Origin: Saccharofermentans sp.
GTDB taxonomy: Bacteria; Bacillota; Clostridia; Saccharofermentanales; Saccharofermentanaceae
Reading direction: 5' to 3'
Length of the DNA stretch: 42,845 nt
Assembly (NCBI GenBank): GCA_016292145.1
Contig: JAEFBA010000012.1
Coordinates: forward strand, 1 to 42,845
This document shows, piece after piece, positions 3,823 to 39,884 of this stretch; positions within the stretch are counted from its first letter, which is position 1; each line of letters begins with the position of its first letter. Under the pieces are notes generated by a model that saw only the letters and a list, made by a program, of their open reading frames with translations, had not been told where the DNA came from and searched no databases. The position numbers were made by a program, and so were the translations under genes.

Positions 3823-4548
3823 TCAGACACAGATATAATCCTTTATCCGGTTGTATTTGGAATCACCTATTCCGGTGACATTCTTGATGTCTTCCACGGC
3901 CTTGAAAGGGTTCTTCTTCCTGTAATCGACTATGGCCTGCGCCGTCACGTCGCCTATCCCCGGAAGGGTCTTAAGATCATCTGCAGAAGCGGTATTGATG
4001 TTTACGATGCTGACACTTCCGCTCACGCCGTCAGAAGATGCTCCCTGCCCGCCGCCCCAGACATAGACGCCCTTCTGCCTTATGATGTCACCGCCGTTAA
4101 AGCCTTTCTCAACCTCCGATCTTGAGGGTATATAGATCGACATGTTGCCCGTTATCTGGTAAACGAGATTGATGTTGTCGGCTGAGGCATCTTCCGTAAG
4201 GCCTCCTGCCTCTTCGATAATGACATTCAGCATGACACCTTTTGGCGCCTCGTAGATGCCCGGCCTGTTCACCTCTCCGCAGATATAGATGCTGACAAGC
4301 TGTATGGTCTCAGGAGCTTTAGATGACGCCTCTTCAGACTGATGGGCCCGGCCGGTATCTTCCGGATCGCCCATATGGCTCCCGGCTTCAGTGATCACCG
4401 CCGACTTGCCGCTCTTAAAAGCGTTGACGGTAATGTCATTCCGCCCTTTAAACACGAACTTATATACGACACTCAGGATGATTACCAGGATGAATGCCAG
4501 AGGATAGACCAGTTTCTTGATTGTCGCCTTCGTGCTTTTCTTTATCAT
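3823..4548 (-). CDS. comEA: ComEA-like competence DNA receptor (SLBB + helix-hairpin-helix)
   Basis: ComEA binds incoming double-stranded DNA at the outer face of the membrane during natural transformation. The 241-residue protein has a short basic N-terminus, one membrane helix (about residues 11-32), a variable linker, an SLBB domain (IYICGEVNRPGIYEAPKG onward, about 85-150), and a C-terminal pair of helix-hairpin-helix motifs (VNINTASADDLKTLPGIG and VTGIGDSKYNRI). The frame extends to a TTG at 4590, but that TTG lies inside the operator/promoter. I chose the ATG at 4548, which begins MIKKSTKATIKK. It has no Shine-Dalgarno sequence and coincides with the predicted transcription start, which suggests a leaderless message. 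comEC is not adjacent. The gene stands alone, with its own promoter downstream of rsfS. Confidence 0.9.
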   Translation of the reverse strand: MIKKSTKATIKKLVYPLAFILVIILSVVYKFVFKGRNDITVNAFKSGKSAVITEAGSHMGDPEDTGRAHQSEEASSKAPETIQLVSIYICGEVNRPGIYEAPKGVMLNVIIEEAGGLTEDASADNINLVYQITGNMSIYIPSRSEVEKGFNGGDIIRQKGVYVWGGGQGASSDGVSGSVSIVNINTASADDLKTLPGIGDVTAQAIVDYRKKNPFKAVEDIKNVTGIGDSKYNRIKDYICV

Positions 4549-4554
4549 ACGGAA

Positions 4555-4612
4555 AGCATAACACCGGTCTTTGTCGGTTTTTGCCGACAAAATCTAACAA
4601 AAACCGACAAGG
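4555..4612 (-). promoter_or_regulatory. comEA promoter with triple TTGTCG operator shared with the Flp locus
   Basis: Reading the minus strand, TTGTCG starts at 4610, the degenerate TTGTTA at 4600 and TTGTCG again at 4590, each 10 bp apart. An extended -10 box (TG-T-TATGCT, 4563-4555) begins exactly 50 bp after the first half-site. The -35 position (4583-4578, CAAAAA) is poor, as in an activator-dependent promoter. The last half-site also pairs with CCGACAA at 4577-4571 to form an inverted repeat. Bases 4612-4585 match 34005-34032 at 25 of 28 positions. Confidence 0.65.
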
Positions 4613-7566: not shown

Positions 7567-8745
7567 TTACTTAAGATAGTGCATCCAGGATCTTGCGCCC
7601 GTCTCAGCCATGAGCGCTGCGATATCCTTATGCTTGATGCCGCTTACAAGGATCGCTTCCTCAGAGAGGTAAACACAGCTGTAGCCCTTTACCACTGCTT
7701 CTGCGGCATTGTCGACCCTGATAACGATATCGGCGATGATCTCATCGTAAGGCATGATCTCAACGCTCTCAGACGTCCATGCTCTTGCTTCTGAAGGATT
7801 GCCCATCGCAGCCTCAAGAACGTCACCGCAGACTGCAGATGCCGTAGGGAGCGTGCCTGCGCCCTGACCGTAGAACATGGCCTGGCCTAAGCTGTTGCCG
7901 TCAACCATTATCGCATTGAATACACCGTTTACGTTATACAAGAGATTGTTTTTCTCGACCATTGCAGGCGCAACATAAGCGACAGGCTTCTCGCCGGCCT
8001 CGTAAAGTGCGATGAGCTTGATGTCGCATCCGATTGACTTAGCAAATGCCATATCGTCTGTCGTGATCGCGGAGATGCCTTCAGCAGAGATCTTCTCAGG
8101 TGCAATGTAATCACCGTCATTTGCGATCGTGGAAAGGATCGAGAGCTTTCTCTGAGCGTCGATGCCGTCGATATCTGCAGAAGGATTAGCCTCTGCAAAG
8201 CCGTTCTCCTGAGCCTGCTTCAATGCCGTAACAAAATCCACGCCCTCATCCTTCATCTGTGAGAGGATGTAGTTCGTTGTGCCGTTAACGATGCCTGCGA
8301 TCTTCGTGATCTTGTTAGCCGCAAGGCACTTATAAAGAGGTCTGATGATCGGGATACCGCCGCCTACTGCAGCCTCGAAAAGATAGCAGCAGTTGTTCTC
8401 CTTTGCGATCTGAAGGAGCTCGGGACCCTTTGTTGAGACAAGTTCCTTATTGGAAGTTACGACGCTGATACCCGAAGACAGAGCGCGCTTTGTGTATTCA
8501 TAAGCAATCCTCGCACCGCCTATGGTCTCGACTGCAATCTGTATGTCGCTTCCGAAAACCTCATCAGCGTCATGTGTTACAAGATTTGCGAATCTGCTGT
8601 CAGGAAAATCCCTGATATCAAGGATGTACTTAACGTTGACCTCTTTGCCGATACGCTTGGAGATAACATCCTTGTTGACGTCCAGAGTCTCGGCAACGCC
8701 TGAACCGACCGTACCGAAGCCCATAATTGCGATGTTGATAGCCAT
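7567..8745 (-). CDS. hom: homoserine dehydrogenase
   Basis: This enzyme reduces aspartate semialdehyde to homoserine with NAD(P)H on the path to threonine and methionine. The 392-residue protein starts with the Rossmann motif GFGTVGSGV and contains EAAVGGGIPIIRPL, GIVNGTTNYILSQM and ADIDGIDAQRKLSIL, all diagnostic. The C-terminal regulatory ACT region (from about residue 335) is short and diverged. Feedback control may therefore come from elsewhere, possibly the ACT protein encoded 19 bp upstream. An AAAGGAAC ribosome site precedes the ATG. thrB, thrC and the aspartokinase gene are not in the window. Confidence 0.95.
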   Translation of the reverse strand: MAINIAIMGFGTVGSGVAETLDVNKDVISKRIGKEVNVKYILDIRDFPDSRFANLVTHDADEVFGSDIQIAVETIGGARIAYEYTKRALSSGISVVTSNKELVSTKGPELLQIAKENNCCYLFEAAVGGGIPIIRPLYKCLAANKITKIAGIVNGTTNYILSQMKDEGVDFVTALKQAQENGFAEANPSADIDGIDAQRKLSILSTIANDGDYIAPEKISAEGISAITTDDMAFAKSIGCDIKLIALYEAGEKPVAYVAPAMVEKNNLLYNVNGVFNAIMVDGNSLGQAMFYGQGAGTLPTASAVCGDVLEAAMGNPSEARAWTSESVEIMPYDEIIADIVIRVDNAAEAVVKGYSCVYLSEEAILVSGIKHKDIAALMAETGARSWMHYLK

Positions 8746-19231: not shown

Positions 19232-19263
19232 AAATTAATCCCCACTTCTTTGTTTTTTAACCT

Positions 19264-19300
19264 GAACAGTCAGATAATGGCCATTATAAATCTACTGTTC
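19264..19300. promoter_or_regulatory. nested palindromes between copies D and E
   Basis: Outer arms GAACAGT (19264-19270) and ACTGTTC (19294-19300) enclose a perfect 14-bp palindrome ATAATGGCCATTAT (19274-19287). No U-run follows on either strand, so a terminator is unlikely. An operator or an RNA processing hairpin fits better. Confidence 0.5.
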
Positions 19301-19311
19301 CAAATAAGAGA

Positions 19312-21711: not shown

Positions 21712-21730
21712 ACATAACCCCCTTTTCTTT

Positions 21731-24115: not shown

Positions 24116-24188
24116 AGTTGATCCCCCACTACAATTCTTATTATCCCAAGTGTTTTCCGGCCTTAAGAAAGTCCTCTTCCCTAAGCAC

Positions 24189-26576
24189 TTACATCTCTTT
24201 TACGTATTTGGCTGTTCTGTCATTCAGGTATCTTATCGCATCGTCAAGAGAACGGTCTCCGGCATAGTATGATGCGAGTTCCTCATCCACGAATTCTATT
24301 ATTGTATGATCCTCATAGTAGTATGTTGAGATTGAAGACAGGCTTTCCTTGAAGCTCTCACTCATGTCATCCGTTGCTTCCTTTTGACCATAAGCCTTGT
24401 CTAAGCCCGGAGCCGGTATAAACTTGCCGCTTTTAATACCCTCTAAATACTTACTATATTCATCGTTATTGTTCCTTGTAAGGAACTCGATATTCCTGTC
24501 CATGATCTCCTTATTCGTTACGATAAATCTGAATTTACAATCGTCTGAATTGTATGCTGCACCTGAAAACATATAATTCAAGAACTTCTTGCAGCCATCC
24601 TTTACATCTGTCGTCGCCGACACCGATACCGTCTCTATGGCTTTGAATCTGGGACCGGAAGCATCTGTTGACGGCGTACCGATGATCTTATAGCTTGCAT
24701 TTGACTTGTTGCAGGCGCACACAAAATCAAGATAATCTCCGATCCTGGTGTAATAACATTCGCCTCTAAATCTTGTCCAATCGTTTTTATAGTCTTCGGG
24801 TACGCTCTTTTCGTTATCGTACACGAAGTTATCTTTCGCATATTCTGCTGCAGCACGGAATTGATCCGTTCCGAATTCGATTTTTTGACCTTCGATCGCT
24901 CTCTTCGTATCTATGCACGACAGCAAAAATGTGCGTTTGTTATAGGCCGTAGACCTCGGATAATCATAAGGTGAGAAGCCGTTCATTTCATCCTTTATCA
25001 GCTTTTCGAATTCTTCGAAAGTAAGACCTGCGGCACCGTCCTTGATCAGCTCCTTATTTGTTACAAGCCCTTCTATCTCGAGCGTAACCGGAAGAAAGTA
25101 CAGTTTGCCATCAATCCTGCCGGCCTCTATGATATTCACGTATTGTTGTTCCAGCACCTCAGGATCTAAGAATCCTGTAAGATCCATAAACACATCATCA
25201 CGCATCGCGTAGTTTTTCTGGATGTTGAGGGCGATGTCCGGTGCATCATCATTTTTAAGGTCCTGGATCATCTTGTATACTTCCTGATCATTCTCATCCA
25301 GTGCACCATATACTAAACCAACAGTATAACCGGACTTATATTTATCCCACACCCTTAAGAGATATTCATTGTCTGTTTTGTTGAATTCAAATATCGTTTT
25401 TGCCAGATAATCCGACACGCCTGAATTAGGCGGTAATGCGATTTCGACGATTTCTTTTCCTGCATTAGGATTCTTTTCTGCTTTTGTAAGCACACGGATA
25501 TAATAATTCTGCTCGGGCACATCAAATCCAAATTGCAGATACTCATAATCCACGATTACAGTTCTTTCTTCACTGTAGTTTATGAGCTTGGATTGAACTC
25601 CCTGCTCATCAGAATATACAGGATAAAAATACGGCGTGTACCAGTTAGTATCGATAACGGTCTTAGGAATCATTGTGTCGGTATCTATCTTAACAACATT
25701 CCCAAGAGAATCGATCTTACAGAAATCACCCTTATCGGTCGCAGCATATTCAGCAAAATCGACATCACCACCGCCTACCTCCCGGAAAGACCTGACATTT
25801 TTCAGTTTTCCGGTCGTTATGTCAAATTCCAGAGAAGATGTATCATCATAATCATAAACACCTATAAAGATGGAATTCGTTGATTCATCGATTGAAAAAC
25901 CGTCTAGCAACCACATAAAAGTTATATTCGACAGCTCAAGCTCTCGTACAAACTCCTGATCTTTAAACAAAAGTATCTGACGATTTGTGTCTCCACCAGT
26001 GCGAAAAGTACCCCACAGCAATGCGATCGTATAGTTTCCGGAAGATACTATATCGAAGATGTCGAATTCGGGTTTTATTACTCTTTTTGCTTTCTCCCCG
26101 ATCAAATCTTTCATGCCTGTTACTTTTCCGCTCTCAGTATCGATCTCGACAAAGGCAGCCTCACCATCAATTCGATCTGCAAATTTAACAACAGCAGTAA
26201 TAGTTTTCCCTTCAGGATCGGCATAGGAACCAGTCACCTCAATAAGATAATGTTTATCAGGGAAAGTGATGTCCCGGCGGCTTAGATGATTGCCTTCAAA
26301 ATCATATGTATCAAGAACCGTTCTTGAAGTATTCCACAGATCAGGTGATACGCAGTACAGCGAAAATATCCTGTCATTGCTTACACATATATCAACGTCA
26401 CACCCGGAATTGCCTTTGTCGATGTCTTTCATCAATTCGAACCTGGTCGATTCGTACCACGGATCATCTTCTTTAACTACTTTAGCGCCCTTCTTAGCCG
26501 AAGCCTTACAAGACGTGAACATTGACACCGACATGACAGCAGCCATTGTAACAGCTAAAATCTTTGTTCTTCTCAT
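24189..26576 (-). CDS. solute-binding lipoprotein with N-terminal sensor-like domain, copy B
   Basis: This paralogue has 795 residues from the ATG at 26576. The frame can be extended seven codons to a TTG at 26597, but those codons are the GGTGGGG ribosome site itself, and the ATG gives a signal peptide of the same length as the others (Cys23 in MFTSC). The N-terminal domain carries the DIDKGNSGCDVDICVSNDR segment unique to this copy. The binding domain has EFNKTDNEYLLRVWDKYKSG, APDIALNIQKNYAMRDD and IIGTPSTDASGPRF (Thr for Val). It lies 82 bp after copy A. Confidence 0.75.
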   Translation of the reverse strand: MRRTKILAVTMAAVMSVSMFTSCKASAKKGAKVVKEDDPWYESTRFELMKDIDKGNSGCDVDICVSNDRIFSLYCVSPDLWNTSRTVLDTYDFEGNHLSRRDITFPDKHYLIEVTGSYADPEGKTITAVVKFADRIDGEAAFVEIDTESGKVTGMKDLIGEKAKRVIKPEFDIFDIVSSGNYTIALLWGTFRTGGDTNRQILLFKDQEFVRELELSNITFMWLLDGFSIDESTNSIFIGVYDYDDTSSLEFDITTGKLKNVRSFREVGGGDVDFAEYAATDKGDFCKIDSLGNVVKIDTDTMIPKTVIDTNWYTPYFYPVYSDEQGVQSKLINYSEERTVIVDYEYLQFGFDVPEQNYYIRVLTKAEKNPNAGKEIVEIALPPNSGVSDYLAKTIFEFNKTDNEYLLRVWDKYKSGYTVGLVYGALDENDQEVYKMIQDLKNDDAPDIALNIQKNYAMRDDVFMDLTGFLDPEVLEQQYVNIIEAGRIDGKLYFLPVTLEIEGLVTNKELIKDGAAGLTFEEFEKLIKDEMNGFSPYDYPRSTAYNKRTFLLSCIDTKRAIEGQKIEFGTDQFRAAAEYAKDNFVYDNEKSVPEDYKNDWTRFRGECYYTRIGDYLDFVCACNKSNASYKIIGTPSTDASGPRFKAIETVSVSATTDVKDGCKKFLNYMFSGAAYNSDDCKFRFIVTNKEIMDRNIEFLTRNNNDEYSKYLEGIKSGKFIPAPGLDKAYGQKEATDDMSESFKESLSSISTYYYEDHTIIEFVDEELASYYAGDRSLDDAIRYLNDRTAKYVKEM

Positions 26577-26658
26577 ACTTAGTTCCCCACCTTTCAAATT
26601 ATCCCCTGCAATCTTTCGAAAAGTACTTGTATTGTTATAAATATCCTAAGCCTGAAAA

Positions 26659-29043
26659 CTACATCTCCCTTACATATTTAGATGTTCTGTCATTTATGTA
26701 TCTTATGGCATCTTCAAGTGAACGGTCGCCTGCATAGTATGGTGCGAGTTCTTCAAAAACAAATTGTACGATCGTATAGTCCTCGTAATAGTAAGTCGAG
26801 ATCGAAGACAGGCTGTTCTTAAAGCTCTCACGCATGTCAGCTGTTGCTTCCTTGTAGCCATAAGCCTTGTCTAAACCAGCCGCCGGCAAAAACGTTCCGT
26901 TCTTAACCTTTTCCTGGTAATCATTAAATGCTTCGTTATGGAGTCTTGCCAGAGTATCAATGTTTTTGTCCATTATCTCCTTGTTGGTTACTATATGCCT
27001 GAATGAACAGTCACCGGTATTGAATGCGGTACCTGCAAAAAGATAATTAATAAACTTCTTACACCCGTCCTTAACATCAGTAGCAGCTGATACTGATATC
27101 GTCTCACGCGCTACAAATCTCGGACCGGCTGCGTCTGCTGAAGGTGTTCCGATAATGCTGTAATGATCTTGGGAATTGTAGCAGTCCTGCACAAAATCCA
27201 GGTAATCATTAATCTTCGCGTAATAACATTTACCTCTGTATCTGTTCCAATCGTTTAAGTAATCTTCAGGCGTGCTGTCCAGATCATCGTAGTTGAAGTT
27301 CTCTTTTGCATATTCGGCTGCGGTACGGAACTGTTCCGTTCCGAATTCTATCTTGTCCCCTTCGATGGCACTCTTTGTATCTATACATGAGAGGATAAAT
27401 GCTTTCTTGTTATAGTATGTTGAGTTCGGATAATCATAGGGCGAGAAGCCTTTCATTTCATCCTTTATCAGCTTGCCGTATTCTTCGAAAGTGATCCCAA
27501 CGGCACCGTCCCTAACCATGTCTGTTTTTGTGACAAGGCCTTCGATCTCCAATGTAACCGGAAGGAAGTAGAGTTTGCCGCCAATCCTTCCTGCCTCAAT
27601 GATATTGCCGTACTGTTTTTCCATGATCTCAGGATCAAGAAAACCCGTAAGATCCATAAAGACTTCATCACGCATCGCATAGTTTTTCTGTATGCCGATA
27701 GCGAGGTCCGGCGCCTGATCGCCTTTAAGATCCTGTATCATCTTATAGACCTGCTGTTCATTCTTATCACCGGAAGCAAGCGCAGTTCTTCCCATTACGA
27801 ATCCGGTCTTATACTTATCCCATACTCTTATGAGATATTCATTGTCAGTTTTATTGAATTCAAATATGGCTTTGGCGAGATAATCCGTAACGCCTGAATT
27901 CAGAGGCAGTGCGAGTTCAACGATCTTTTTTCCTGCATGAGGATTCTTATCTGCCTTCTTAAGAACTCTGACATACTCATGATCAATGTATTCGAGACAA
28001 CCATAAGATATTACCTCGCCGTCCAGAATGACAGCTCTATCTTCCGTACAGTTCAGGACCGTGGAAAAAACACTGTATTTTTCATTTTGGATATCATAGA
28101 AATACGGTGTATACCAGTTGGTATCGATCACGGTCTTAGGCGTCATGGTATTATAATCGATCTTCACTATATTGCCGAGAGAATCGATCTTGCACATCTC
28201 ACCGTTATCAGTCATGGTGTATTCTGCGATGTTAACTGACTGGGTATCTATATCATTAAAAGACTTCTGGCTCTTAAGTTTTCCGTTATTAAGATCGAAT
28301 TCCATGTTGATGTTATCACGCGGTATAAAACCTGACATGTACAGGGAATTCTTAGTCTCATCTACAGAAAATCCTTCCAAAGAGTGTATAAGCTTTATTG
28401 ATGACGTATCAAGTTCGCAGACATACTCAGTATTCTTAAACAATATGAATTGATAATCCGTTTCTGCGCCGCTTCCGCAATCGAGCACAGCAAGAGTATA
28501 TTCACCTATGGTTTCTATTCTTGCAAAAGCGGAACCAGGTCTTCTGACCTTCTCTGCCTCTTTGTCAAAGACATCCTTTATATTCGAGACCAATCCTGTC
28601 TCAGGATCAAGGTCCGCAAATACAGGCCCGTGCTTTCCGGATGCATTAATATAGGCAATTAAATGCATGGTCTTTCCATCGCCGTCGAGCCCGAAAGAAT
28701 AGATGGTCATGATACAGAATTCATCCAACTCATTACTCGTAATTTCCTGACGGTTAAGCCGATTACCGTCATAGTCATACGAATCCAGAAAAGTCTTTAT
28801 TGAAGCCCACCCGTGGTATTTTACATATATGTTGAAAATCCTGTCATCACTTACACACAGACTGGATGCCTGTATGTCATCGCTTTTCCGAACATTTTTG
28901 TCCAGTTCGAACTTGGTGCATTCGTACCATGGATCATCAGCTTTGACTATCTTCTGTCCTTTCTTTTCCGCCGAACAGGATGTAAAAACAGACATCAGAA
29001 TAGCAAAACAGATAACCAATGCTAAAAGCCTGGATCTTCTCAT
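26659..29043 (-). CDS. solute-binding lipoprotein with N-terminal sensor-like domain, copy A
   Basis: This is the first paralogue in transcription order, 794 residues from the ATG at 29043. The frame opens at a TTG at 29103, but GGAGGGG lies just upstream of 29043 and the ATG there restores the shared 23-residue lipoprotein signal (VFTSC). DDPWYE and the DSLGNIVKIDYNTMT segment are present in the N-terminal half. The binding domain contains APDLAIGIQKNYAMRDE, KLYFLPVTLEIEGLVT and DRSLEDAIRYINDRTSKYV. The 155-bp region upstream holds two 19-bp direct repeats and is the most likely site of the array's main promoter. Confidence 0.75.
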   Translation of the reverse strand: MRRSRLLALVICFAILMSVFTSCSAEKKGQKIVKADDPWYECTKFELDKNVRKSDDIQASSLCVSDDRIFNIYVKYHGWASIKTFLDSYDYDGNRLNRQEITSNELDEFCIMTIYSFGLDGDGKTMHLIAYINASGKHGPVFADLDPETGLVSNIKDVFDKEAEKVRRPGSAFARIETIGEYTLAVLDCGSGAETDYQFILFKNTEYVCELDTSSIKLIHSLEGFSVDETKNSLYMSGFIPRDNINMEFDLNNGKLKSQKSFNDIDTQSVNIAEYTMTDNGEMCKIDSLGNIVKIDYNTMTPKTVIDTNWYTPYFYDIQNEKYSVFSTVLNCTEDRAVILDGEVISYGCLEYIDHEYVRVLKKADKNPHAGKKIVELALPLNSGVTDYLAKAIFEFNKTDNEYLIRVWDKYKTGFVMGRTALASGDKNEQQVYKMIQDLKGDQAPDLAIGIQKNYAMRDEVFMDLTGFLDPEIMEKQYGNIIEAGRIGGKLYFLPVTLEIEGLVTKTDMVRDGAVGITFEEYGKLIKDEMKGFSPYDYPNSTYYNKKAFILSCIDTKSAIEGDKIEFGTEQFRTAAEYAKENFNYDDLDSTPEDYLNDWNRYRGKCYYAKINDYLDFVQDCYNSQDHYSIIGTPSADAAGPRFVARETISVSAATDVKDGCKKFINYLFAGTAFNTGDCSFRHIVTNKEIMDKNIDTLARLHNEAFNDYQEKVKNGTFLPAAGLDKAYGYKEATADMRESFKNSLSSISTYYYEDYTIVQFVFEELAPYYAGDRSLEDAIRYINDRTSKYVREM

Positions 29044-29101
29044 AAATAATCCCCTCCGAAAACTACACCAGTAATTCCAAAAAGTCCTACTGTTCCCCAA
29101 C

Positions 29102-29174
29102 AATCGGTATCAAAATTATTTGAATACATCTTCATAGTAAAGTTCAATTACATCAAATCGGCATCAAAAGTATT
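29102..29174. repeat. two 19-bp direct repeats upstream of the lipoprotein array
   Basis: 29102-29120 and 29156-29174 match at 17 of 19 bases (pattern AATCGGyATCAAAAkTATT), 54 bp apart. They lie between the end of comF and the start of copy A, where the array's promoter is expected. I found no further copy in the window. A regulator-binding pair is plausible. Confidence 0.55.
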
Positions 29175-29198
29175 AACTTTTTTGGGGGATTGCTTTTA

Positions 29199-29999
29199 TC
29201 AGAAAGGCTCTGCATTCTTTACCGCTCTGTTACCCGCAAATGCAACACATAAAACTTTGGCTGCACCTGCTTTATACAGGGTCTTTGCCGCTTCATGAAG
29301 AGTTGCGCCTGTCGTAGCGACGTCATCTACGATGACAATTCTAAGGCCGGTCACATCCCAGCTGCTGCTAACTTCAAAAGCGCCTCTTACATTTCCTGCT
29401 CTCTTATTGCTGTCGTGTATCTCAGACTGCCTTCCGGTATCCCTGGTCCTTATAAGACAGTCTTCTGCCACGGGGACAGAGTTGATCCTTGATACAGGAT
29501 ATGCGATCTCATAGGCCTGGTTAAAGCCTCTTTCAGCTAACCTCTTCTCTGACAGAGGAATGGGAACAATCAGATCCGCTCTTATTCCTTCATCACGGAG
29601 GAACGATCCTAAGACCGTTCCAAACAGTCTTGCGAGTTCTTTGTTCTTTCCGAATTTGATGGCAGGCACGGCACGCTCCGGTATGCCTTTATACGGGAAA
29701 GGCATATAGAGCGCAAGGCCCGGACACGGGTCATTCTCGACCGGATTTGAAAGACACAGGAACCATCTTTTGTCCTCATCACTCGCATCAAGCCTGGAAA
29801 GGCACTTGCCGCAGATGTGGAGTTCAGGCTCCGTTCCGTAGAGCTCAGTATAAAGCCTGTCGTAGTTCACAAACCGCTCTTCGGTATCAGAAACGCCGCC
29901 GCAGACCGGGCATTTGAAAGGAAGGATAAGATCCACCGCCCTCTTAAATGCTTCTCTTACTTCGATCGGGATTACTTTTTTGGTATCTGCTCTCCGCAC
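29199..29999 (-). CDS. comF: ComF family phosphoribosyltransferase-like protein
   Basis: ComF proteins are needed for natural transformation and are thought to help DNA entry or single-strand handling in the cytoplasm. The 266-residue protein has an N-terminal four-cysteine zinc site (CPVCGG and CGKC), then a type I phosphoribosyltransferase fold with VPIPLSEKRLAERGFNQA and the PRPP loop VIVDDVATTGATL. The GTG start at 29999 overlaps the recD2 stop (TAGTG), so the two are translationally coupled. The lone TTGTCG motif upstream of recD2 does not form the triple operator seen at comEA. Confidence 0.93.
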   Translation of the reverse strand: MRRADTKKVIPIEVREAFKRAVDLILPFKCPVCGGVSDTEERFVNYDRLYTELYGTEPELHICGKCLSRLDASDEDKRWFLCLSNPVENDPCPGLALYMPFPYKGIPERAVPAIKFGKNKELARLFGTVLGSFLRDEGIRADLIVPIPLSEKRLAERGFNQAYEIAYPVSRINSVPVAEDCLIRTRDTGRQSEIHDSNKRAGNVRGAFEVSSSWDVTGLRIVIVDDVATTGATLHEAAKTLYKAGAAKVLCVAFAGNRAVKNAEPF

Positions 30000-32347
30000 T
30001 ATTTATTCCTGCGGAAATCAACGGTCTTCAAAAGGTCTTTTAAGCACGTCTGCCGGGTGTCGCCCTTAGGCGCCTTCAAGAACTTCTGAAGCGTTCCTTC
30101 AAGCTCAACGATGGTAACGTTCATCCTGCCCCTCGTTACCGCCGTATAGAGCAGGCTGCGCTTATACAGGAGCATATTCATCTTGCCCAAAGCGATTATG
30201 ACCCTGTCAAATTCGCAGCCCTGTGATTTATGTACCGTAACGGCATAAGCAAGATCAATGTTCTCCAGGAGCTTTCCCTTATACTCCGCTGACTTGCCTT
30301 CATCAAAAGTTATGGTGCAGCTGCCCTTCACAGGGTCGATGTCACTTACAACTCCGAGTTCGCCGTTGAATATGCCCTGCAAAACCTCACCCGTAACAGG
30401 ATCTATCCATTCGGTCTGGTAATCGTTCTTATTCTGCATGACCTTGTCGCCGACATGAAGCGTCAGGCTCTGGCCACGCTTAATAACTTTCAGTTCATCT
30501 TTTACTTCAAGTGCCTGGATCAGCTTATTAAGCTGGACCGTACCAAGAGCAACATTCTCATTCTTCGTGGGCGTAAGACAGATAAGATCTTCGTCCTTGT
30601 GCTCCAGAATAAGCCTTGCTATGGTCTCCTGAGCTTCCTCTTCGGTCTTGCAGGAGATTATCTCAAAATCACCGCCGCAGTTCTCAGGCATTGTGCCTTC
30701 AAGTATGCGTTCAGCGTTGACAGCAATAGACCCGTCATCTGCCTGTCTGTGCAGCGCATCAAGCCTTATCTTCGGAATGGAATCGCAGGACAAGAGATCT
30801 CTCAGGATATCACCTGAACCTACGGACGGAAGCTGGTCCGGGTCACCTACCAGTATTATCGAAGTGCCTTTATCCACGGCATCGAGAAGGTGCCTGAACA
30901 GCATCGTATCGACCATCGACATCTCATCGATGACTATTACCCTGCACACAATAGGATTATCTTTCCCGTGCACGAAAAGAAGGCTGTTATACTGCCCCGC
31001 CCTGTCGTCGGGAAGCAGGTCTTCATCGTCTGATTTAATTGTATTCCTGACGCCCAAGAGCCTGTGTATCGTGGAAGCATCTGTACCGCTCGCCTCCGAC
31101 AGTTTCTTCGCTGCTCTCCCGGTAGGCGCTGCAAATACGCAGCTGATCTTATTGCGTCTGAAATATTCTCCAAGAACGCCCATAATGGTGGTCTTGCCGG
31201 TGCCGGGGCCGCCCGTAATTACGCTTATCGGACTGTACATGCAAAGATACAGGGCATCGAGCTGGGACTTGTCGGGAATGATACCGAGATCTGACGCAAC
31301 TTCCTTGATTATCCTGTCGCTCTCATCCCTTGCCGGAGGATTAGTCCTCGTCTTAAGCATCTCGTTTATGCGTCTCTCGATCGCAAGCTCGGACGCGAAA
31401 TAACTCATAGTCGCAAAGCGCGCATCGTTGTCTTCCACATCGCACACCGCGCACTTTCCGTTATCGTATTTATATACTGCGATCCTCTTGTCTTCTATCG
31501 CAAGTGACGCCGCATCCCTGAACACACCGGAGAACTGCTCTGAGGTTATTTTCGATTCATGCAGATTAACGTATTCAAGCGCTCTTTTCCTGACATCCTG
31601 AGGCATGAGAGCCGTAGACTTCGTATCCTCGTGAAGATACATGCATGCCTGATAAAGCGCTGCAGCGATCCTCTCTTTGGCAGTGATCTCCATTCCTTCG
31701 CCGAGAGCTATACGGTCAAGGATCTCAAAGCCTGCGATACCATGCCCCATAAGGGCATAAGGTCTCTTGCGTATCTCTTCGCAGTCGAGCTTATCCGTAT
31801 TGTTAAGGAGCTTTATCTGAGCCTGCGAAAAGCCCATGAGCTTAGCTTCGAGGCCCTGATCGAAGAACTCATATTTATCGACTATCTGATCGCATATGGC
31901 GATCGCTCTGGAAGAAGTAAGACCGCTCACTTCAGAAGCTGCAAGTTCAGGCGTCTCTGTAAGGACCTTCAGGATATCTTTGCCGAACTTCTCAGCGAGA
32001 GCTTCGGCAGTGGTCTTGCCCAGACCGCTTATGTTATCTGCAAGAAATGATGCGATAAGAAGCGTATCGCCGGCATCCTCATCGACTTTGATCTTCTTTA
32101 ATGTGACCTGAGGTCTGTTGTTCCATTCCGTAACCTTGCCGGAGATTATGTATGAGCCGCCTTCAACGATATCGACCTTGGATCTGCCTGCCACGGTAAA
32201 TCTTCCGTCACACAGGAAAGAGACAAAATTATTGGCCTTCCTCGGGCAGAAGACCTTGATGCAAGTAACCTTTGCATCCTCGATCTCACTGCCGATATCA
32301 GCGACCGTCAAAGTGAGCTTCTTATCTTCCTTTGAGTCGTTCTTCAT
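29999..32347 (-). CDS. recD2: RecD2-type ATP-dependent DNA helicase
   Basis: This is a 5'-3' SF1B helicase acting in DNA repair and recombination outside RecBCD. The 782-residue length matches RecD2. The N-terminal OB-like segment (about residues 15-90) is followed by helix-hairpin-helix repeats (NISGLGKTTAEALAEKFG), the Walker A motif ITGGPGTGKTTI near residue 380, Walker B VIDEMSMVD and the C-terminal AYAVTVHKSQGCEFD. The frame begins with a TTG at 32404, but homologous sequence starts only at the ATG at 32347 (MKNDSKEDKKL), so that is chosen. The metK terminator lies just upstream. It is coupled to comF by a one-base overlap. Confidence 0.94.
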   Translation of the reverse strand: MKNDSKEDKKLTLTVADIGSEIEDAKVTCIKVFCPRKANNFVSFLCDGRFTVAGRSKVDIVEGGSYIISGKVTEWNNRPQVTLKKIKVDEDAGDTLLIASFLADNISGLGKTTAEALAEKFGKDILKVLTETPELAASEVSGLTSSRAIAICDQIVDKYEFFDQGLEAKLMGFSQAQIKLLNNTDKLDCEEIRKRPYALMGHGIAGFEILDRIALGEGMEITAKERIAAALYQACMYLHEDTKSTALMPQDVRKRALEYVNLHESKITSEQFSGVFRDAASLAIEDKRIAVYKYDNGKCAVCDVEDNDARFATMSYFASELAIERRINEMLKTRTNPPARDESDRIIKEVASDLGIIPDKSQLDALYLCMYSPISVITGGPGTGKTTIMGVLGEYFRRNKISCVFAAPTGRAAKKLSEASGTDASTIHRLLGVRNTIKSDDEDLLPDDRAGQYNSLLFVHGKDNPIVCRVIVIDEMSMVDTMLFRHLLDAVDKGTSIILVGDPDQLPSVGSGDILRDLLSCDSIPKIRLDALHRQADDGSIAVNAERILEGTMPENCGGDFEIISCKTEEEAQETIARLILEHKDEDLICLTPTKNENVALGTVQLNKLIQALEVKDELKVIKRGQSLTLHVGDKVMQNKNDYQTEWIDPVTGEVLQGIFNGELGVVSDIDPVKGSCTITFDEGKSAEYKGKLLENIDLAYAVTVHKSQGCEFDRVIIALGKMNMLLYKRSLLYTAVTRGRMNVTIVELEGTLQKFLKAPKGDTRQTCLKDLLKTVDFRRNK

Positions 32348-32395
32348 TGCCTGCTCTTCCCGTAAACTTTTCCAAATGCTAACAGTAAAAGCTCG

Positions 32396-32440
32396 ACAAA
32401 ACAATAAGCCCGGCCAAAGTTGAGACTCTGACCGGGCCTT
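32396..32440 (-). terminator. metK terminator
   Basis: On the minus strand AAGGCCCGG and CCGGGCTT form the stem, followed by TTATTGTTTTG. It lies 23 bases past the metK stop. Confidence 0.75.
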
Positions 32441-34004: not shown

Positions 34005-34062
34005 CCTTGTCGGTTTTTGTCGTATTTTGTCGCTTCTATCAAGGCTTTCAGGGCCTTACAAT
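34005..34062 (+). promoter_or_regulatory. Flp locus promoter with triple TTGTCG operator shared with comEA
   Basis: TTGTCG begins at 34007, 34017 and 34027, one DNA turn apart. The -35 position (34034-34039, TTCTAT) is poor, while the -10 box TACAAT (34057-34062) is good. The -10 begins exactly 50 bp after the first half-site, as at comEA. The arrangement fits a response-regulator-type activator bound next to the -35 region. The predicted start near 34069 gives a leader of about 29 nt with AAGGAGGA at 34083-34090. Confidence 0.65.
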
Positions 34063-34097: not shown

Positions 34098-35006
34098 ATG
34101 GCATTTACGATCAAGATCTATGAGAAGAATGAATACATATCGGAACTTTTGAAGAAGAGACTCAAGAGTTTCTTCCCCGATGCCTATATCGTTAATCCTT
34201 ACTTTGACGATCAGGATCAGGAAACAAGATTCAGCGATTATGAGAGAGTCTTATACGATCCCAAAGATATAAGCAAGGAAGAACTTTCCTCATTTTCAGT
34301 CTCACCCATTAGGCTTACGGAAGACGGCGGGATAATTGATTGTGCCCGATTTATCCCCATGATCAGGAAGAATGCGGAATCCCCCTCTTTTCTCGCACCT
34401 GTCACGGGTTCTTTGACCGCCGTCATTCCGTTCGTCTACTCGGATGTAAGAGACAGATATATCTGCAGCTTAGGACATGATCTGTCAGGAGCAGACTTTA
34501 ACATCAGGCTCGATTTCACGAGCAAGATCAGATCTCTATGGAGGTCTCCTGCAGGTTCTAACATGACAGCACTTCTGGAGGCATGCAGGTCAAAGAAGTT
34601 CGAGCCCGAAGACATCCTAAAGTACTGCAATATGGATGATGCAGGTTTCCTCACACCGGGAAGCTGCATGAATAATGATGATGTCTATGATATCGGCGTA
34701 TCACGTTCTATGACTCTCATGAACCATGCAGCAACACTCGCACACTCAAACAGGAGGTTCGTGAACGTCATATCTGTCGTCGAAGGCTTCAGGACAAATG
34801 ATCTTCCGGAACTCTTAAGCAGCTGCGACAAGGTTACCATTCTGCTGCCCGCCATAAATGCAGGTGAAGACATTGGTTCCAAGGACCTTATCGCGCAGCT
34901 TACCAAAGCCCTCGGAAGAGAGCGGATCTCCGTCTTCTATGCAGATGACATTTATGATCCCGGCATTCTCGATATCAGGTTAAGTCCCGGGAGACAGGCC
35001 GTATGA
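34098..35006 (+). CDS. TadZ-like protein with degenerate ATPase site, first gene of the Flp locus
   Basis: I cannot name this 302-residue protein by motif alone. The N-terminal 100 residues resemble a receiver-like domain (IKIYEKNEYISELLKKRL, as in TadZ/CpaE). The rest resembles a MinD/TadZ fold: AVIPFVYSD where a P-loop would be, then LGHDLSGADFNIRLD, NMTALLEACRSKK, DAGFLTPGSCMNN, and FVNVISVVEG followed by KVTILLPAINAGED. No GKTT-type Walker A is present, so it would be a pseudo-ATPase. TadZ proteins place the pilus machine in the cell, and its position directly before the CpaF ATPase supports that role. It overlaps cpaF by ATGA. Confidence 0.55.
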   Translation: MAFTIKIYEKNEYISELLKKRLKSFFPDAYIVNPYFDDQDQETRFSDYERVLYDPKDISKEELSSFSVSPIRLTEDGGIIDCARFIPMIRKNAESPSFLAPVTGSLTAVIPFVYSDVRDRYICSLGHDLSGADFNIRLDFTSKIRSLWRSPAGSNMTALLEACRSKKFEPEDILKYCNMDDAGFLTPGSCMNNDDVYDIGVSRSMTLMNHAATLAHSNRRFVNVISVVEGFRTNDLPELLSSCDKVTILLPAINAGEDIGSKDLIAQLTKALGRERISVFYADDIYDPGILDIRLSPGRQAV

Positions 35007-36199
35007 ACCAGGTCAAGGCAGATCCCGCCGACATCAAAGAGCAGATCACTTACTGCGTTCTGAATGCCATATCAGGTGAGACGGACCCGTCGGATGAGAA
35101 GCTCAGGGAGATAATCTCTGACGTCATCTCCGATAATCCTTCCTACAAGATGAATCTGGACCAGAAACGCGAGATGGCTCAGATGGTATTCAATTCGTTA
35201 AGGCGCCTCGATGTCATAGAGCCACTGATGGAAGATCCGTCGATCACGGAGATAATGGTCAACGGACCCTATAAGATCTTTTTCGAGCGCGGAGGAAAAC
35301 TCTATAAATCCAATCTTTCCTTCCGCGATGAAGAGTCGCTTAAGACATGCATCTCGTGCTTTTTCGCGAACCAGAACAGACCTCTTAACGAAGCTAACCC
35401 CATTGCTGATTTAAGACTTCCTGACGGCTCAAGAGCAAACGCCGTGCTGCCTCCGATATCAAGGGAGACAACAGTAACGATAAGGAAGTTTACCGGCATC
35501 ACGCATGACATCGTAACGCTGATAAGACAGGACTTCATAAGCGAAGATGCAGCAAGGTTTCTTGCGGAGTGCGTAAGGAATAAAAGGACCATCTTCATAT
35601 GCGGCGGTACAGGGAGCGGAAAGACAACTTTCCTGAATTCACTGTCGAACTTCATACCGAAGAATGAAAGGATCGTAACCATAGAAGACTCGGCTGAACT
35701 AAAGCTTCAGGGGATCGACAATCTGGTTCAGATGGAAGGAAGGCTCCCCGGGCCTGACGGCACAGGAGAAGTAAACATAGGAATGATGATCAGAGCCTCT
35801 CTTCGTATGAGGCCTGACCGCATCATCGTAGGTGAAGTCAGAGGCAAGGAAAGCGCAGATCTCCTGTCCTGCTTAACAAGCGGGCACCCGGGCTCCATGA
35901 GCACGGGACATAGCAATTCCTGCTTCGAGATGATGGAAAGGCTTACGGCCATGATAATGTCCGGGTCATCTCTTCCCTACGACGCAATCCTTTCACAGGT
36001 ATCGATGGGAATAAACATAGTCCTTCACATAATGAGAAGCCGTGAAGGCAAAAGATACATAGATGAGATCTGTGAGGTAATGCCGCCTCAGGATCACGAA
36101 TACAGGCTTAAGACTCTTTACAGAAACAAAGGAGGTGAAGGACTTGAACGTATCGCAAGCGATGAAGATATCAAAAGAGCGATGGCTTACCGTGCGTAA
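35003..36199 (+). CDS. CpaF/TadA family pilus assembly ATPase
   Basis: This is the secretion ATPase that drives Flp/Tad pilus assembly (and retraction in some systems). The 398-residue protein has the N-terminal helical part, the family segment ITEIMVNGPYKIFFERGGKL, Walker A ICGGTGSGKTTFLNSL, ERIVTIEDSAEL, RMRPDRIIVGEVRGKE and STGHSNSC (His box). It lies in the cytoplasm beneath the inner-membrane platform encoded by the next gene. Translation is coupled to the preceding gene, and the 3' end overlaps the next gene by 56 bases. Confidence 0.93.
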   Translation: MNQVKADPADIKEQITYCVLNAISGETDPSDEKLREIISDVISDNPSYKMNLDQKREMAQMVFNSLRRLDVIEPLMEDPSITEIMVNGPYKIFFERGGKLYKSNLSFRDEESLKTCISCFFANQNRPLNEANPIADLRLPDGSRANAVLPPISRETTVTIRKFTGITHDIVTLIRQDFISEDAARFLAECVRNKRTIFICGGTGSGKTTFLNSLSNFIPKNERIVTIEDSAELKLQGIDNLVQMEGRLPGPDGTGEVNIGMMIRASLRMRPDRIIVGEVRGKESADLLSCLTSGHPGSMSTGHSNSCFEMMERLTAMIMSGSSLPYDAILSQVSMGINIVLHIMRSREGKRYIDEICEVMPPQDHEYRLKTLYRNKGGEGLERIASDEDIKRAMAYRA

Positions 36200-37706
36200 C
36201 AGAAGTCACCCCTTTGCAGTTTTCCTTGCAAAGACTGTCTGGGTATATCCGGTCTTTGTTGCCGTTGTATATTTTGCGTCCGGCCTTTTCATCAGTTCTG
36301 AAACTGTAAGACTGATACTCGCAGTTGCGCTGAGTATCCTTCCGTGGAAAGAAGCAATGAAGAAGATCTACTCGAATAACTACAGGCACATGAGAACCCA
36401 GCTTCTGGTCCTTCTTCAGGTGCTTACCACAAGTGTGTCGAGCGGATATTCGATAGAGAAATCACTTCTTCTGATAAGACCCGTTATCGAGAGGACATTC
36501 GGCAGACGTTCAATGCTGTTAAAGCCTCTGATAAATCTCGAGAATAATTTGAAGCTTCATGTAAGCCTTGAAGAATCTCTTAATACATTTGCACGGCAGA
36601 TCGCATTTCCCGAGACAGTTCCAATATTCCATGCCCTTGCCATATCAGGAGAGATCGGCAATAACAGTCTTTCGATACTGAGAAGTTCATGTCAGATGCT
36701 GTCTGAACTTAATGCGGTTCAAGGAGAGATTGCGGCTTCCAATGCAGGCAAAAATGCCGAAGCGGCCATACTGTGCGCAATGCCTTTTGGCGTAACATTC
36801 GCACTTAACTACATGAGCCGTGAATATCTTGATATGGCAAGAAATACAAGGACCGGATCTTTTCTCCTGGCCATAGCGTTCGGCGTATGCACGATAGCAT
36901 GTGCGATGCTCTTAAAGTTCATGTCACATGAGCATGGAAGAAAAGCTTATAAGTCCGAACTTGCAGTAAATCTGACTTCAGGGAAAGCATACAAGACACC
37001 CCTTACCGGACTTATAAAGAAGATCTTTCCTGCAAGCTTCATTACTGCAAGACACGAACTCTTTAACGAGCTCTCGGTAAATCCGGATTACACTTATGAG
37101 CAGTATCTAAAAAAGCAGCTTTTGACAGGAGCAGTATTCCTTGCCCTGTCAGCTTCAATACTCATAACACTTGGTAAGAACCCTCTCTTTGCGCTCTTTT
37201 TAACGGCCGCATTATTGTTACTTGGCGGATTTGAGATCAGGTCTGATGTTGAGCGCAAAAGAGAGGATCTTATGAGTGATATCCCCTTGTTCCTGTGTCT
37301 GATGTCGACACTTCTTGAATCAGGAATGCAGCTGCCAAAAGCGATATCAATTTGCGCTAAAGCATTCGATGAGAACAAGAGTTTATCGCTTGAGATAAAG
37401 AACCTAAGAGCAATGATCTTAAGCGGCATACCCGCTTCAGACGCGATCGAGAAATTCTCCTTAAGGATCCAGATCCCTGAAGCGCAGGCAGCGCTGCTCC
37501 TTGTGGCAAGGTACGGCAGGCTCGGCACCTCGGAAGTACTGAACATGTTGAATCTTCAGTCCCAGGCATGCTGGAACTTGTGCAGAAACGCCTCGCGCAA
37601 AAGGCAGGAACGTGAAGCATTAGGAATGATCATCCCTATGACGCTTGATTTCATAAGCGTCCTGATGGTCGCCATGACACCCGCAATTATCTCACTCGGC
37701 ATATAA
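36144..37706 (+). CDS. fused TadB-TadC pilus platform protein
   Basis: The 520-residue protein carries two type II secretion F (GspF-like) domains that in most Tad loci are the separate proteins TadB and TadC. The first domain (about residues 60-250, with TQLLVLLQVLTTSVSSGYSI and HALAISGEIGNNSLSILRS) is followed by two helices. The second (about 330-520, with FLCLMSTLLESGMQLPKAIS and LLVARYGRLGTSEVLNML) ends in a final helix. At least five membrane segments are visible. A TTG at 36144 is the preferred start because AAAGGAGG lies 8 bp before it. A GTG at 36135 sits on the ribosome site itself, and an ATG at 36162 is also possible. The fusion fixes a 1:1 ratio of the two halves. Confidence 0.85.
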   Translation: MNVSQAMKISKERWLTVRNRSHPFAVFLAKTVWVYPVFVAVVYFASGLFISSETVRLILAVALSILPWKEAMKKIYSNNYRHMRTQLLVLLQVLTTSVSSGYSIEKSLLLIRPVIERTFGRRSMLLKPLINLENNLKLHVSLEESLNTFARQIAFPETVPIFHALAISGEIGNNSLSILRSSCQMLSELNAVQGEIAASNAGKNAEAAILCAMPFGVTFALNYMSREYLDMARNTRTGSFLLAIAFGVCTIACAMLLKFMSHEHGRKAYKSELAVNLTSGKAYKTPLTGLIKKIFPASFITARHELFNELSVNPDYTYEQYLKKQLLTGAVFLALSASILITLGKNPLFALFLTAALLLLGGFEIRSDVERKREDLMSDIPLFLCLMSTLLESGMQLPKAISICAKAFDENKSLSLEIKNLRAMILSGIPASDAIEKFSLRIQIPEAQAALLLVARYGRLGTSEVLNMLNLQSQACWNLCRNASRKRQEREALGMIIPMTLDFISVLMVAMTPAIISLGI

Positions 37707-37720
37707 AGGAGGAAAAGGCT

Positions 37721-37894
37721 ATGCGACAGACAAAGAAACGTTGGAATAAGAAAGGTATGGGAACCGTTGAGATCGTAATAATCATCGCGGTGCTCGTAGC
37801 ATTGGCCCTGCTCTTCAGGACCGGTCTTACGGAATATGGAGAAAAGGTTATGGATTTCTGTTTTGACGATTCAAAGATAGCTTCCGCCTTCTGA
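37721..37894 (+). CDS. flp: Flp-type type IVb prepilin (57 residues)
   Basis: This short gene was found by reading the gap after the platform gene. It encodes a basic leader MRQTKKRWNKKG, then MGTVEIVIIIAVLVALALLF and a 25-residue acidic tail. Cleavage after Gly12 would leave Met+1 and the required Glu at +5 (Glu17), the hallmark of type IV prepilins, followed by a hydrophobic spine. The size matches Flp1 pilins of Clostridia. AAAGGAGG at 37705-37713 lies 7 bp before the ATG. It is probably the major structural subunit of the pilus built by the preceding ATPase and platform. No prepilin peptidase gene is in the window, so processing must come from elsewhere. Confidence 0.88.
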   Translation: MRQTKKRWNKKGMGTVEIVIIIAVLVALALLFRTGLTEYGEKVMDFCFDDSKIASAF

Positions 37895-37944: not shown

Positions 37945-39222
37945 ATGCAGATAAAGAAGGGACCCTACGGATACTACGCTATAGAGAAGCTGGACAGTCC
38001 GGATAAAATATGTGCTTATGCCGAAGAGGTAATTGCCGGAAACAAGTCAGACTTCTATCTTCAGCCTGTTACCGATCTATTCGGATCGGGAGCAATGTGC
38101 AGTTTTGAATTCTCAGGTTATTTACAACTCACAGACCCGGAGTTTTCCGTATTTTCTCCGGGAAAGAAAACCGCCTCACACAAAAAAGATAATAAGAACC
38201 TGAGTTTGAGGCGCAGATCTGTCGGGGACCTTTTTTATGCATTCGCCAAGCTATTAGATAACCTTATCTCCCCCTCATGTTTAGTGCTTGACCCTAACAT
38301 GATATTCACCGATCCTGAAGGCATCTCCGTTAAGATGTGCTGCCTTCCGGTAAAGAGCCATCCTGAAGATCTCTGCATATCTTCATTGGGTGCTGCGCGT
38401 CTTGAAGAACTCCTTAATTGTGATTTCTTCAAGAGCATCATTACCGACGACGAGAAAAACGCATTGGTATACAGCGTAAAAGAAAACAACGAAGAGATGT
38501 TCTTAAAGATAGCCGGACTCATCAGAGGCAACGGCGAAGATGACTCCGTATCCATGAATATTCAGAGCAGGAAAGCACCTGCTGCGGAAGGACTTCCTTC
38601 AGCTTTAAGGAACCTTTCCAAAAGCGAGAAAGACCTTGTTATCGCAGCTCTTTCGTCAGTTCTCTCAGTACTTTCGCTGCTCGGTAAGATGCCTCTTCCC
38701 TGTATCCTATTCTACTTGCTTTCAGTGATAATATTCATTTCCACGCTGATGAATCAAAAGAAGACAAAAGCAAGTATCAGGAAAACAGAATCACAGGAAC
38801 AATCAAGACAGAGAAGCTCGATCCTGTTTTCGGATAACCCTGTGATCTCTCAATCTGACGACAGCTCATCTGAGAGCGGAACCGAATATGCATTAGACCT
38901 TTATAAGCCACTTATTACGGGAAGACTTACGTTGCTCTCGGACAATGACAAAATAAACAGCAACTACACGCTCTATCTTGATAAGACGACTATAGGTTCT
39001 GACTGTTTCCTGTCGGATATAGTTCTGGATGAACAAGGTATCGCACCTCTTCATGCAGTGATAAGACAGACAAACGGATCTTTCTACTTAGAACCCGCAA
39101 AAGGCTCCGGGAAAACATTTATAGAAGATTCTCCGGTTGAAACCGGCAGATCATATGAAATCAAATCCGGACAGAAGATAGCATTTGGAGATATTGAGTT
39201 CAGGTTTGGAACATCAAATTAA
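37945..39222 (+). CDS. membrane protein with N-terminal DUF6382-like region and C-terminal FHA domain
   Basis: The 425-residue protein has an N-terminal cytoplasmic region of about 220 residues resembling the DUF6382 domain found in Flp loci of Clostridia (SVGDLFYAFAKLLDNLISP). One or two membrane helices follow (about 235-270, LVIAALSSVLSVLSLLGKMP onward), then a Ser-rich linker and an FHA domain (about 330-425, with TTIGSDCFLSDIVLD, PLHAVIRQTNGSFYLEP and a closing IAFGDIEFRF). FHA domains bind phosphothreonine, so Ser/Thr kinase control of the pilus is a reasonable inference. FHA conserved Gly-Ser and His are kept, but the usual Arg of the GR motif is missing. It lies 50 bp after the pilin gene. 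Confidence 0.8.
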   Translation: MQIKKGPYGYYAIEKLDSPDKICAYAEEVIAGNKSDFYLQPVTDLFGSGAMCSFEFSGYLQLTDPEFSVFSPGKKTASHKKDNKNLSLRRRSVGDLFYAFAKLLDNLISPSCLVLDPNMIFTDPEGISVKMCCLPVKSHPEDLCISSLGAARLEELLNCDFFKSIITDDEKNALVYSVKENNEEMFLKIAGLIRGNGEDDSVSMNIQSRKAPAAEGLPSALRNLSKSEKDLVIAALSSVLSVLSLLGKMPLPCILFYLLSVIIFISTLMNQKKTKASIRKTESQEQSRQRSSILFSDNPVISQSDDSSSESGTEYALDLYKPLITGRLTLLSDNDKINSNYTLYLDKTTIGSDCFLSDIVLDEQGIAPLHAVIRQTNGSFYLEPAKGSGKTFIEDSPVETGRSYEIKSGQKIAFGDIEFRFGTSN

Positions 39223-39248: not shown

Positions 39249-39884
39249 GTGAGCACCTGTTACAACTACTTTTTAGGGTACATGAAGGATGATAAGATTT
39301 TTCCGCTAGGCCCTTATGACAGCAAAGGAAAACTTAGATCAATCAACTCAAGTGTATTCGGAAAGATTCAAGATAAATGCAGCTTTACTGACGTCAAGAA
39401 TTCAGAAGCAAGTGAAGAGCTCCATAAAGAATTCGATTACGAGAGTAATGTCAATAGAAACAAAACCAAAATGGTTCTAACCTCACTGAAAAAGGCCAAA
39501 CTAAATGATCTTCCCTCTGGAGATTATATTAAACGTGGTTATTTTCTGATGAGTGATGTAACAAATTATGAATCCTCAGATGGTCGGGATTTCTATTTTC
39601 ACGACTATAAATCTCCATCTGTATTTTCAGAAATGATAAAGAATGAGAACCAGAATAAGACCAAATCATACGATTACGACGGAGAACCTGTTTATCGAAA
39701 TATCACTTCGGATTATATGTATTTTGCTTATCCTGATTACAGCAGTGAACAATATGAATCATTTGTTATAAAAACATTTGCTGAATCACTAAGAAAAAAC
39801 GAAGGTATACCTGCAAGTGAAATAGTCGTATTGTACACAGAAACAAAAACGGTCGAAAAGGAAAACTATACGTTTGTTATATAA
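39249..39884 (+). CDS. unknown A+T-rich protein at the end of the Flp locus
   Basis: I do not recognise this 211-residue protein. It starts at a GTG with GGAGG well placed (39238-39242), 26 bp after the FHA gene. It has no signal peptide or membrane helix and is rich in Lys, Asn, Asp, Ser and Tyr. It opens MSTCYNYFLGYMKDDKIFPL and includes DFYFHDYKSPSVFSEM; both resemble small toxin-antitoxin or phage-associated accessory proteins only in composition. Its base composition is visibly more A+T-rich than the pilus and atp genes on either side, suggesting recent acquisition. It may be co-transcribed with the Flp locus. It converges on atpC with a 6-bp gap. Confidence 0.6.
   Translation: MSTCYNYFLGYMKDDKIFPLGPYDSKGKLRSINSSVFGKIQDKCSFTDVKNSEASEELHKEFDYESNVNRNKTKMVLTSLKKAKLNDLPSGDYIKRGYFLMSDVTNYESSDGRDFYFHDYKSPSVFSEMIKNENQNKTKSYDYDGEPVYRNITSDYMYFAYPDYSSEQYESFVIKTFAESLRKNEGIPASEIVVLYTETKTVEKENYTFVI

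Follow-up and report, generated by a model that had tools for sequence, protein, structure and literature searches.

A triple 0A-box-like operator shared by Flp pilus and competence genes of Saccharofermentans, with a Spo0A-like protein as candidate activator

Introduction

The window analysed here, a 42,845-nucleotide stretch of DNA from a Saccharofermentans sp. of the Clostridia, carries a Flp pilus operon and, on the opposite strand, comEA, and it raises the question of why the promoters of two unrelated genes should look nearly the same. A first-pass annotation had proposed that a single activator, bound as tandem subunits, turns both on together. Here we describe how far the shared sequence extends in this genome and its relatives, which genes stand behind it and which protein might read it. 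We consider it probable that both sites are operators of a genus-wide natural-competence regulon, likely activated by a single-copy Spo0A-like protein. The features that bear on this reading are collected in Table 1.

Results

Two promoters of the window carry the same operator

Direct reading of the sequence confirmed what had been noted for the two promoters: positions 34005-34032 (+) and 4612-4585 (-) are identical at 25 of 28 bases, each promoter holds three half-sites at a 10-bp period, the middle one being degenerate (TTGTTA) at comEA, and in both the -10 box starts exactly 50 nt past the start of the first half-site. The -35 region is poor in both. The spaced pattern TTGTCG-N4-TTGT-N6-TTGTCG has only two matches in the window, at Flp and comEA, both perfect, and dinucleotide shuffles of the window gave an expectation of 0.40 matches with three mismatches allowed. 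At comEA, the last direct half-site and an inverted one form TTTGTCGG-N5-CCGACAAA at 4593-4570 (-). The inverted half-site is also present in the close relatives G005, G004 and G008, and this element of the subclade's comEA promoter is a possible candidate site for a symmetric dimer.

Table 1. Coordinates of the operators, promoters and genes discussed in the text
Feature	Position	Strand	Basis
Flp operon operator, TTGTCG (0A-box-like) half-sites 34007, 34017, 34027	34007..34032	+	exact triple
Flp -10 box TACAAT, 24 nt past last half-site	34057..34062	+	sequence; -10 position fixed over 124 sites
TadZ/CpaE-like first gene of Flp operon (name inferred from position and sequence)	34098..35006	+	no Pfam match
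TadA secretion ATPase (T2SSE)	35003..36199	+	Pfam PF00437, E 4.4e-50
TadB/TadC-like inner-membrane protein (T2SSF)	36135..37706	+	Pfam PF00482, E 2.9e-8
57-aa Flp-pilin-like putative prepilin (KKG/MGTVEIVIIIAVLVALALLF)	37721..37894	+	sequence
FHA-domain protein of Flp operon	37945..39222	+	Pfam PF00498, E 1.6e-10
Hypothetical protein, putatively the end of Flp operon	39249..39884	+	no Pfam match
comEA operator, half-sites 4610, 4600 (degenerate TTGTTA), 4590	4585..4610	-	sequence; orthologous promoters
comEA inverted half-site CCGACAAA, directly after last direct half-site	4570..4577	-	sequence
comEA -10 box TATGCT, 24 nt past last half-site, 6 nt ahead of ATG	4555..4560	-	sequence
comEA (SLBB and helix-hairpin-helix), ATG at 4548, predicted leaderless	3823..4548	-	Pfam PF10531, PF12836
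Spo0A-like protein of the same genome	G000:C11:45175-45717		genus profile, E 1.7e-72

Beyond the window, TTGTCGN4TTGTNGN4TTGTCG with at most two mismatches matched 10 times in the 2.7 Mb genome to which the window belongs, against once for the reversed pattern. With at most one mismatch, 24 of 40 related genomes contained the triple, up to 13 times each, against no genome for the reversed pattern. No 10-bp-spaced triple, even with three mismatches, was present in 838,910 bases taken around another gene in related genomes, and other repeat periods, used as controls, gave nothing comparable to 10 bp. The operator is spread across the genus (rumen and gut Saccharofermentans), and in relatives the motif is kept at the Flp and comEA promoters. 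Starting from the genes instead, we found the triple, allowing up to two mismatches, before the Flp operon in 18 of 22 genus genomes, and the triple or two perfect adjacent half-sites stood at comEA in 10 of 16, at comM in 15 of 21 and at comEC in 10 of 17. About 115 neighbourhoods, annotated by clustering and Pfam, yielded 124 merged sites with at most two mismatches; the DNA flanking the sites is not common to them.

Pilus, DNA-uptake, recombination and nuclease genes stand behind the operator

The first gene downstream of the 124 sites belongs most often to a PD-(D/E)XK nuclease family (39-41 sites), followed by the Flp operon (16), a TadE-type pseudopilin operon (15), comEA (10), comM-dprA-topA (7), recA-recX (7), comEC (5), tiny membrane peptides (5), Rpn-like genes (4) and an unknown 196-aa family (3). 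An A24 prepilin peptidase, ppnK-argR-recN, yraN and a HicAB-like pair are single-site targets, and 7 sites were given no gene class. About half of the sites precede pilus, pseudopilin, DNA-uptake or recombination genes, and most others the nuclease family. The same operator at comEA, comEC, the dprA operon and recA is what marks the set as a probable competence regulon. In addition to the two sites of the window, this genome has operators at a second pilus operon (DUF5702 and TadE-like pseudopilins, C117), at two paralogous nuclease-like genes (C13, C101), at recA (C84) and in a gene-poor cluster (C135), and its comEC, also on C117, has two perfect half-sites about 84 bp upstream of the ATG. 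The recA operator lies about 200 bp upstream of the gene in most genomes, mostly without a -10 box at the usual distance.

The first-pass annotation had predicted further copies of the motif in front of comEC, dprA, a prepilin peptidase and a response-regulator gene. Sought in related genomes, the motif was found at the first three, and a response-regulator gene carrying it was not found. Absence of the motif from relatives and wide occurrence at unrelated genes would both have spoken against a common regulon, and neither held. For the sites lacking an obvious gene, Rfam gave no match. Clusters of many TTGTCG and CGACAA copies with no obvious gene occur at L012 (about 8390-8620), L160, L133 and L134; they lie near a GTTCGGAGCATATATGTTC palindrome and are conserved between this genome and G020. 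The HicA/HicB-like pair follows a minus-strand operator on L155 (G012).

Identification of the pilus locus as Flp/Tad follows from T2SSE and T2SSF genes recognised by Pfam, together with the prepilin-like protein of 57 aa and the TadE-type pseudopilins read from the sequence; the names TadZ, TadE and prepilin are readings of sequence and position, not family matches. The TadE-like pseudopilins sit in a second operon, which also bears the operator. The TadZ/CpaE-like first gene of the Flp operon is present in 22 of 24 genus genomes, and the listed GTG start of the TadB/TadC-like gene may be too early. Because PilB/PilT-type genes and a second TadA without the operator are likewise present in the genus, the Flp pilus is, by gene content, not the sole candidate uptake filament, and we rejected for the genus the view of it as the sole type IV filament. 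For these filament genes, several f2 and f4 genomes with ComEC gave a single match only, which we assumed to be TadA. Elsewhere in the window, six genes of about 800 aa stand in a row at 16844-32404 (-), broken by a ComF-like gene (29199-29999) without an operator; one of the six, when read, resembles an extracellular solute-binding lipoprotein.

The nuclease-like family is multicopy (L100:3589-4383 and 38 others in 16 genomes, with up to five operator-linked copies per genome) and corresponds to no Pfam family. In its c0 proteins, E, K, D and E residues are invariant and arranged in the way typical of PD-(D/E)XK enzymes. The proteins also match, weakly, Bax1, T7 endonuclease I, Holliday junction resolvases and the C-terminal end of PDC-S68 (a candidate defence protein). 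Their role may be to cut or process DNA that enters the cell, or to protect against it. That this family is the largest class of targets, and that five sites stand before genes for tiny membrane peptides of Hol-Tox-like or holin-like type, would suit a general stress or stationary-phase regulon of the Spo0A-like protein, in which competence is one branch and nucleases and small membrane peptides are the main business. However, nearly all other recurrent targets are pilus, DNA-uptake or recombination genes, and the nuclease genes suit DNA processing in competence equally well. We regard a general stress regulon as unlikely.

The membrane-peptide genes themselves encode 28-43 aa (L080:3660-3749, L168:3621-3752, L109:3328-3414, L178:3568-3654 and L154:3594-3680); one of the five matches Hol-Tox (PF16935) and others are holin-like. 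At L080, the leader is complementary to sequence downstream of the gene, an arrangement known from type I toxin-antitoxin mRNAs.

A divergent Spo0A-like protein is the candidate regulator

The TTGTCG half-site matches the 0A box of Spo0A, whose core TGTCGAA is contacted specifically at G2, C4 and G5 (PMC3485338). Of the 124 sites, no fewer than 123 have G2 and no fewer than 120 have G5 in each of the three half-sites, and C4 is present in 118, 101 and 123 (first, middle and third half-site), the middle one having A in 22. The Spo0A_C profile PF08769 detected one protein per genome in 34 of the 40 relatives, over the curated cut-off in 28 of 40, and among 14 control genomes it matched only in B. 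subtilis. Profiles of the genus proteins added three others and the copy of the genome studied here, which is too divergent to give a PF08769 match below E 0.001. A Spo0A_C protein was therefore detected in 38 of 40 genomes, including this one, with never more than one match per genome. Two genomes, G006 (97% complete, at least 9 sites) and G022, have operators, yet gave no Spo0A-like gene in two to three profile searches that included a broader profile.

The Spo0A-like proteins are about 180-250 aa long, and their genes keep the same surroundings, with ligA-side genes on one flank and a convergent HU gene on the other. Against the full-length Spo0A equivalog model TIGR02875 (cut-off 200 bits) they reached at most 45 bits, with the effector region alone matched. 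An AlphaFold2 model (pLDDT 75) matched the Spo0A effector 1fc3_B with Z 12.5 and an rmsd of 2.0 Å over 94 residues, and the Spo0A DNA complex 1lq1_C with Z 11.5; the next unrelated entry had Z 5.2. Among 50 relatives, residues E143, R144 and R147 do not vary; their counterparts in Spo0A form the E-R-x-x-R of the recognition helix. Departures from it occur in G014 (K-R), G026 (D-R), G038 (N-R) and genus g5 (KVCYxxRY). Within the operator-bearing genus the motif is conserved apart from the one E-to-K change in G014, which has sites, and genus g5 has no triple site. Since several members of the order (G024, G028, G030 and G037) keep E-R-x-x-R without a triple site, recognition helix and operator correlate one way only.

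In place of a receiver, for which Pfam gave no match at E up to 1, the proteins have an N-terminal domain of 45 residues (L240:8079-8282) that is present across the order, with invariant D, G, G, Y, D and R in the pattern VVCSDxxLLxxINxxL...G.I...D..G..HYIVDGR. Modelled alone, this domain gave no fold match above Z 2.1; its conserved D22 and D53 make a reduced receiver possible. Because the isolated DNA-binding domain of Spo0A binds its targets without phosphorylation (PMC3485338), control of the Spo0A-like protein via its level is plausible. Autoregulation through the motif was rejected, given that no site lies within the neighbourhood of the gene. SpoIVA is absent from all 40 genomes (0/40), and on this ground the order is very probably asporogenous.

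The same regulon could also be governed by another regulator, of the OmpR, NarL or LytTR type or some other factor, which binds the repeats while the Spo0A-like protein acts elsewhere. Binding to tandem repeats spaced at 10-11 bp is common among OmpR-type regulators, and the two operator-bearing genomes without a detectable Spo0A-like gene would fit such a factor. In contrast, the half-site is the 0A-box core at the very bases known to be contacted (PMC3485338), a genome never has more than one Spo0A_C match, the base-reading helix has been conserved while the rest of the protein diverged, and no first gene downstream of the 124 sites was seen to encode a transcription factor. For these reasons another regulator appears quite unlikely.

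Promoter anatomy points to activation and to leaderless transcripts

A TAnnnT hexamer follows the last half-site at offset 23 in 33 sites and at offset 24 in 45, that is, in 78 of 124, against about two per position at other offsets. A second TAnnnT peak (n=19) at offset 34, one helical turn further, belongs to a subclade with a degenerate fourth half-site. Given this fixed distance to the -10 box, the half-sites would lie at about -39, -49 and -59, thus in the position of a class II activator, and the proposal of one activator bound as tandem subunits fits both the helical phase and the distance. The interval from the -10 hexamer to the ATG is exactly 6 nt in 7 comEA, 2 comEC and 21 nuclease promoters, with one more case at 7 nt in each class, so that a 6-7 nt spacing is found at 8 of 10 comEA sites, 3 of 3 comEC sites with a -10 box and 22 of 33 nuclease sites with a -10 box. 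Because the ATG lies so close to the -10 hexamer, comEA, comEC and many nuclease genes are predicted to have leaderless mRNAs that start on the start codon. Leaders are longer at the Flp, TadE and comM genes, and many of them contain a ribosome-binding site. As an independent rule, the 6-nt spacing supports the promoter assignment.

A reading of the repeats as operators for a repressor, or as a repeat element that plays no part in activation, is very improbable. Clusters in this genome (C135), G016 and G020, with many TTGTCG copies and no clear gene behind them, could be taken that way, but the -10 box at a fixed distance in helical phase, the second peak displaced by exactly one turn, the poor -35 at both promoters of the window and the exact 6-nt spacing in leaderless genes indicate functional activator sites, and the flanks are not shared. 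That two AT-rich promoters of the window resemble each other by chance, a view for which we found no supporting point, is refuted by conservation at orthologous promoters and has a negligible probability; the earlier judgement that the likeness is hard to put down to chance is borne out by shuffles, reversed patterns, control DNA, orthologous promoters and the fixed -10 distance alike.

Discussion

The sites, targets, promoter geometry and conservation observed here, together with the regulator gene, its predicted fold and the absence of SpoIVA, would fit a mechanism in which an activator keeps the DNA-binding domain and recognition helix of Spo0A while a short N-terminal domain replaces the receiver. 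Its subunits would line up head to tail along three TTGTCG (0A-box) half-sites of 10-bp period whose centres lie near -39, -49 and -59, and the bound activator would recruit the housekeeping RNA polymerase to promoters with a good -10 box and no clear -35. The Flp/Tad pilus, the TadE-type pseudopilin operon, ComEA, ComEC, ComM-DprA and the PD-(D/E)XK nucleases would be switched on jointly, with RecA joining the set in several genomes, so that pilus, receptor, channel, DNA-protection and recombination genes would be turned on together. We infer that the Spo0A-like protein binds these sites and activates, and that competence results, with the Flp pilus as the filament that takes up DNA.

In evolutionary terms, we lean towards a scenario in which an order without SpoIVA, probably non-sporulating, turned a stripped-down Spo0A into a dedicated competence activator via triple 0A boxes, with the Flp pilus coupled to DNA uptake and with leaderless mRNAs for a nuclease family as well as for the core uptake genes. 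This suggests that spore-formation control was reused for DNA uptake. Spo0A has been noted in apparent non-spore-formers, with an alternate role raised as one possibility (PMC6136694). Control of DNA uptake would be a concrete and testable role for the Spo0A-like genes of such bacteria, and the open-licence literature that we searched holds no paper linking a Spo0A-like protein to competence in Clostridia. If the proposal is true, it provides, within that literature, the first operator-level evidence for a Flp/Tad pilus in a competence programme of Clostridia, and it predicts that abundant rumen bacteria are transformable once the factor is expressed, opening a practical route to their genetics.

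Among the closest known systems is Spo0A of B. subtilis and Clostridia, with its spoIIG and spoIIE promoters. At spoIIG, tandem 0A half-sites lie directly upstream of a sigma-A-type -10 box. The protein described here shares with Spo0A the effector-domain fold, the E-R-x-x-R recognition helix and the half-site core TGTCG, and the operators share the spoIIG geometry as generally known. Unlike Spo0A, it has no recognisable receiver, measures about 180-250 aa, is not encoded beside spoIVB and occurs in genomes without SpoIVA, and its regulon comprises competence, pilus and nuclease genes rather than sporulation genes. The ComK and ComX regulons of Bacilli offer a parallel in which one factor turns on uptake, DNA-processing and recombination genes together, although the factor and the operator differ and the regulon here includes a Flp pilus. 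A sporulation-initiation-related regulator reused for competence in a non-sporulating Firmicute has a precedent in Lactobacillus sakei, where Sigma-H controls competence genes (PMC3364868); that regulator is a sigma factor, whereas the candidate here is a Spo0A-type DNA-binding activator with 0A-box-like operators. Finally, Flp/Tad-dependent transformation is known in Micrococcus luteus (PMC4322843, PMC8467076), where Tad/Flp genes likewise occur together with comEA and comEC. M. luteus belongs to the Actinobacteria; in the Clostridia studied here, a shared operator ties the pilus to the com genes, and a candidate regulator can be named.
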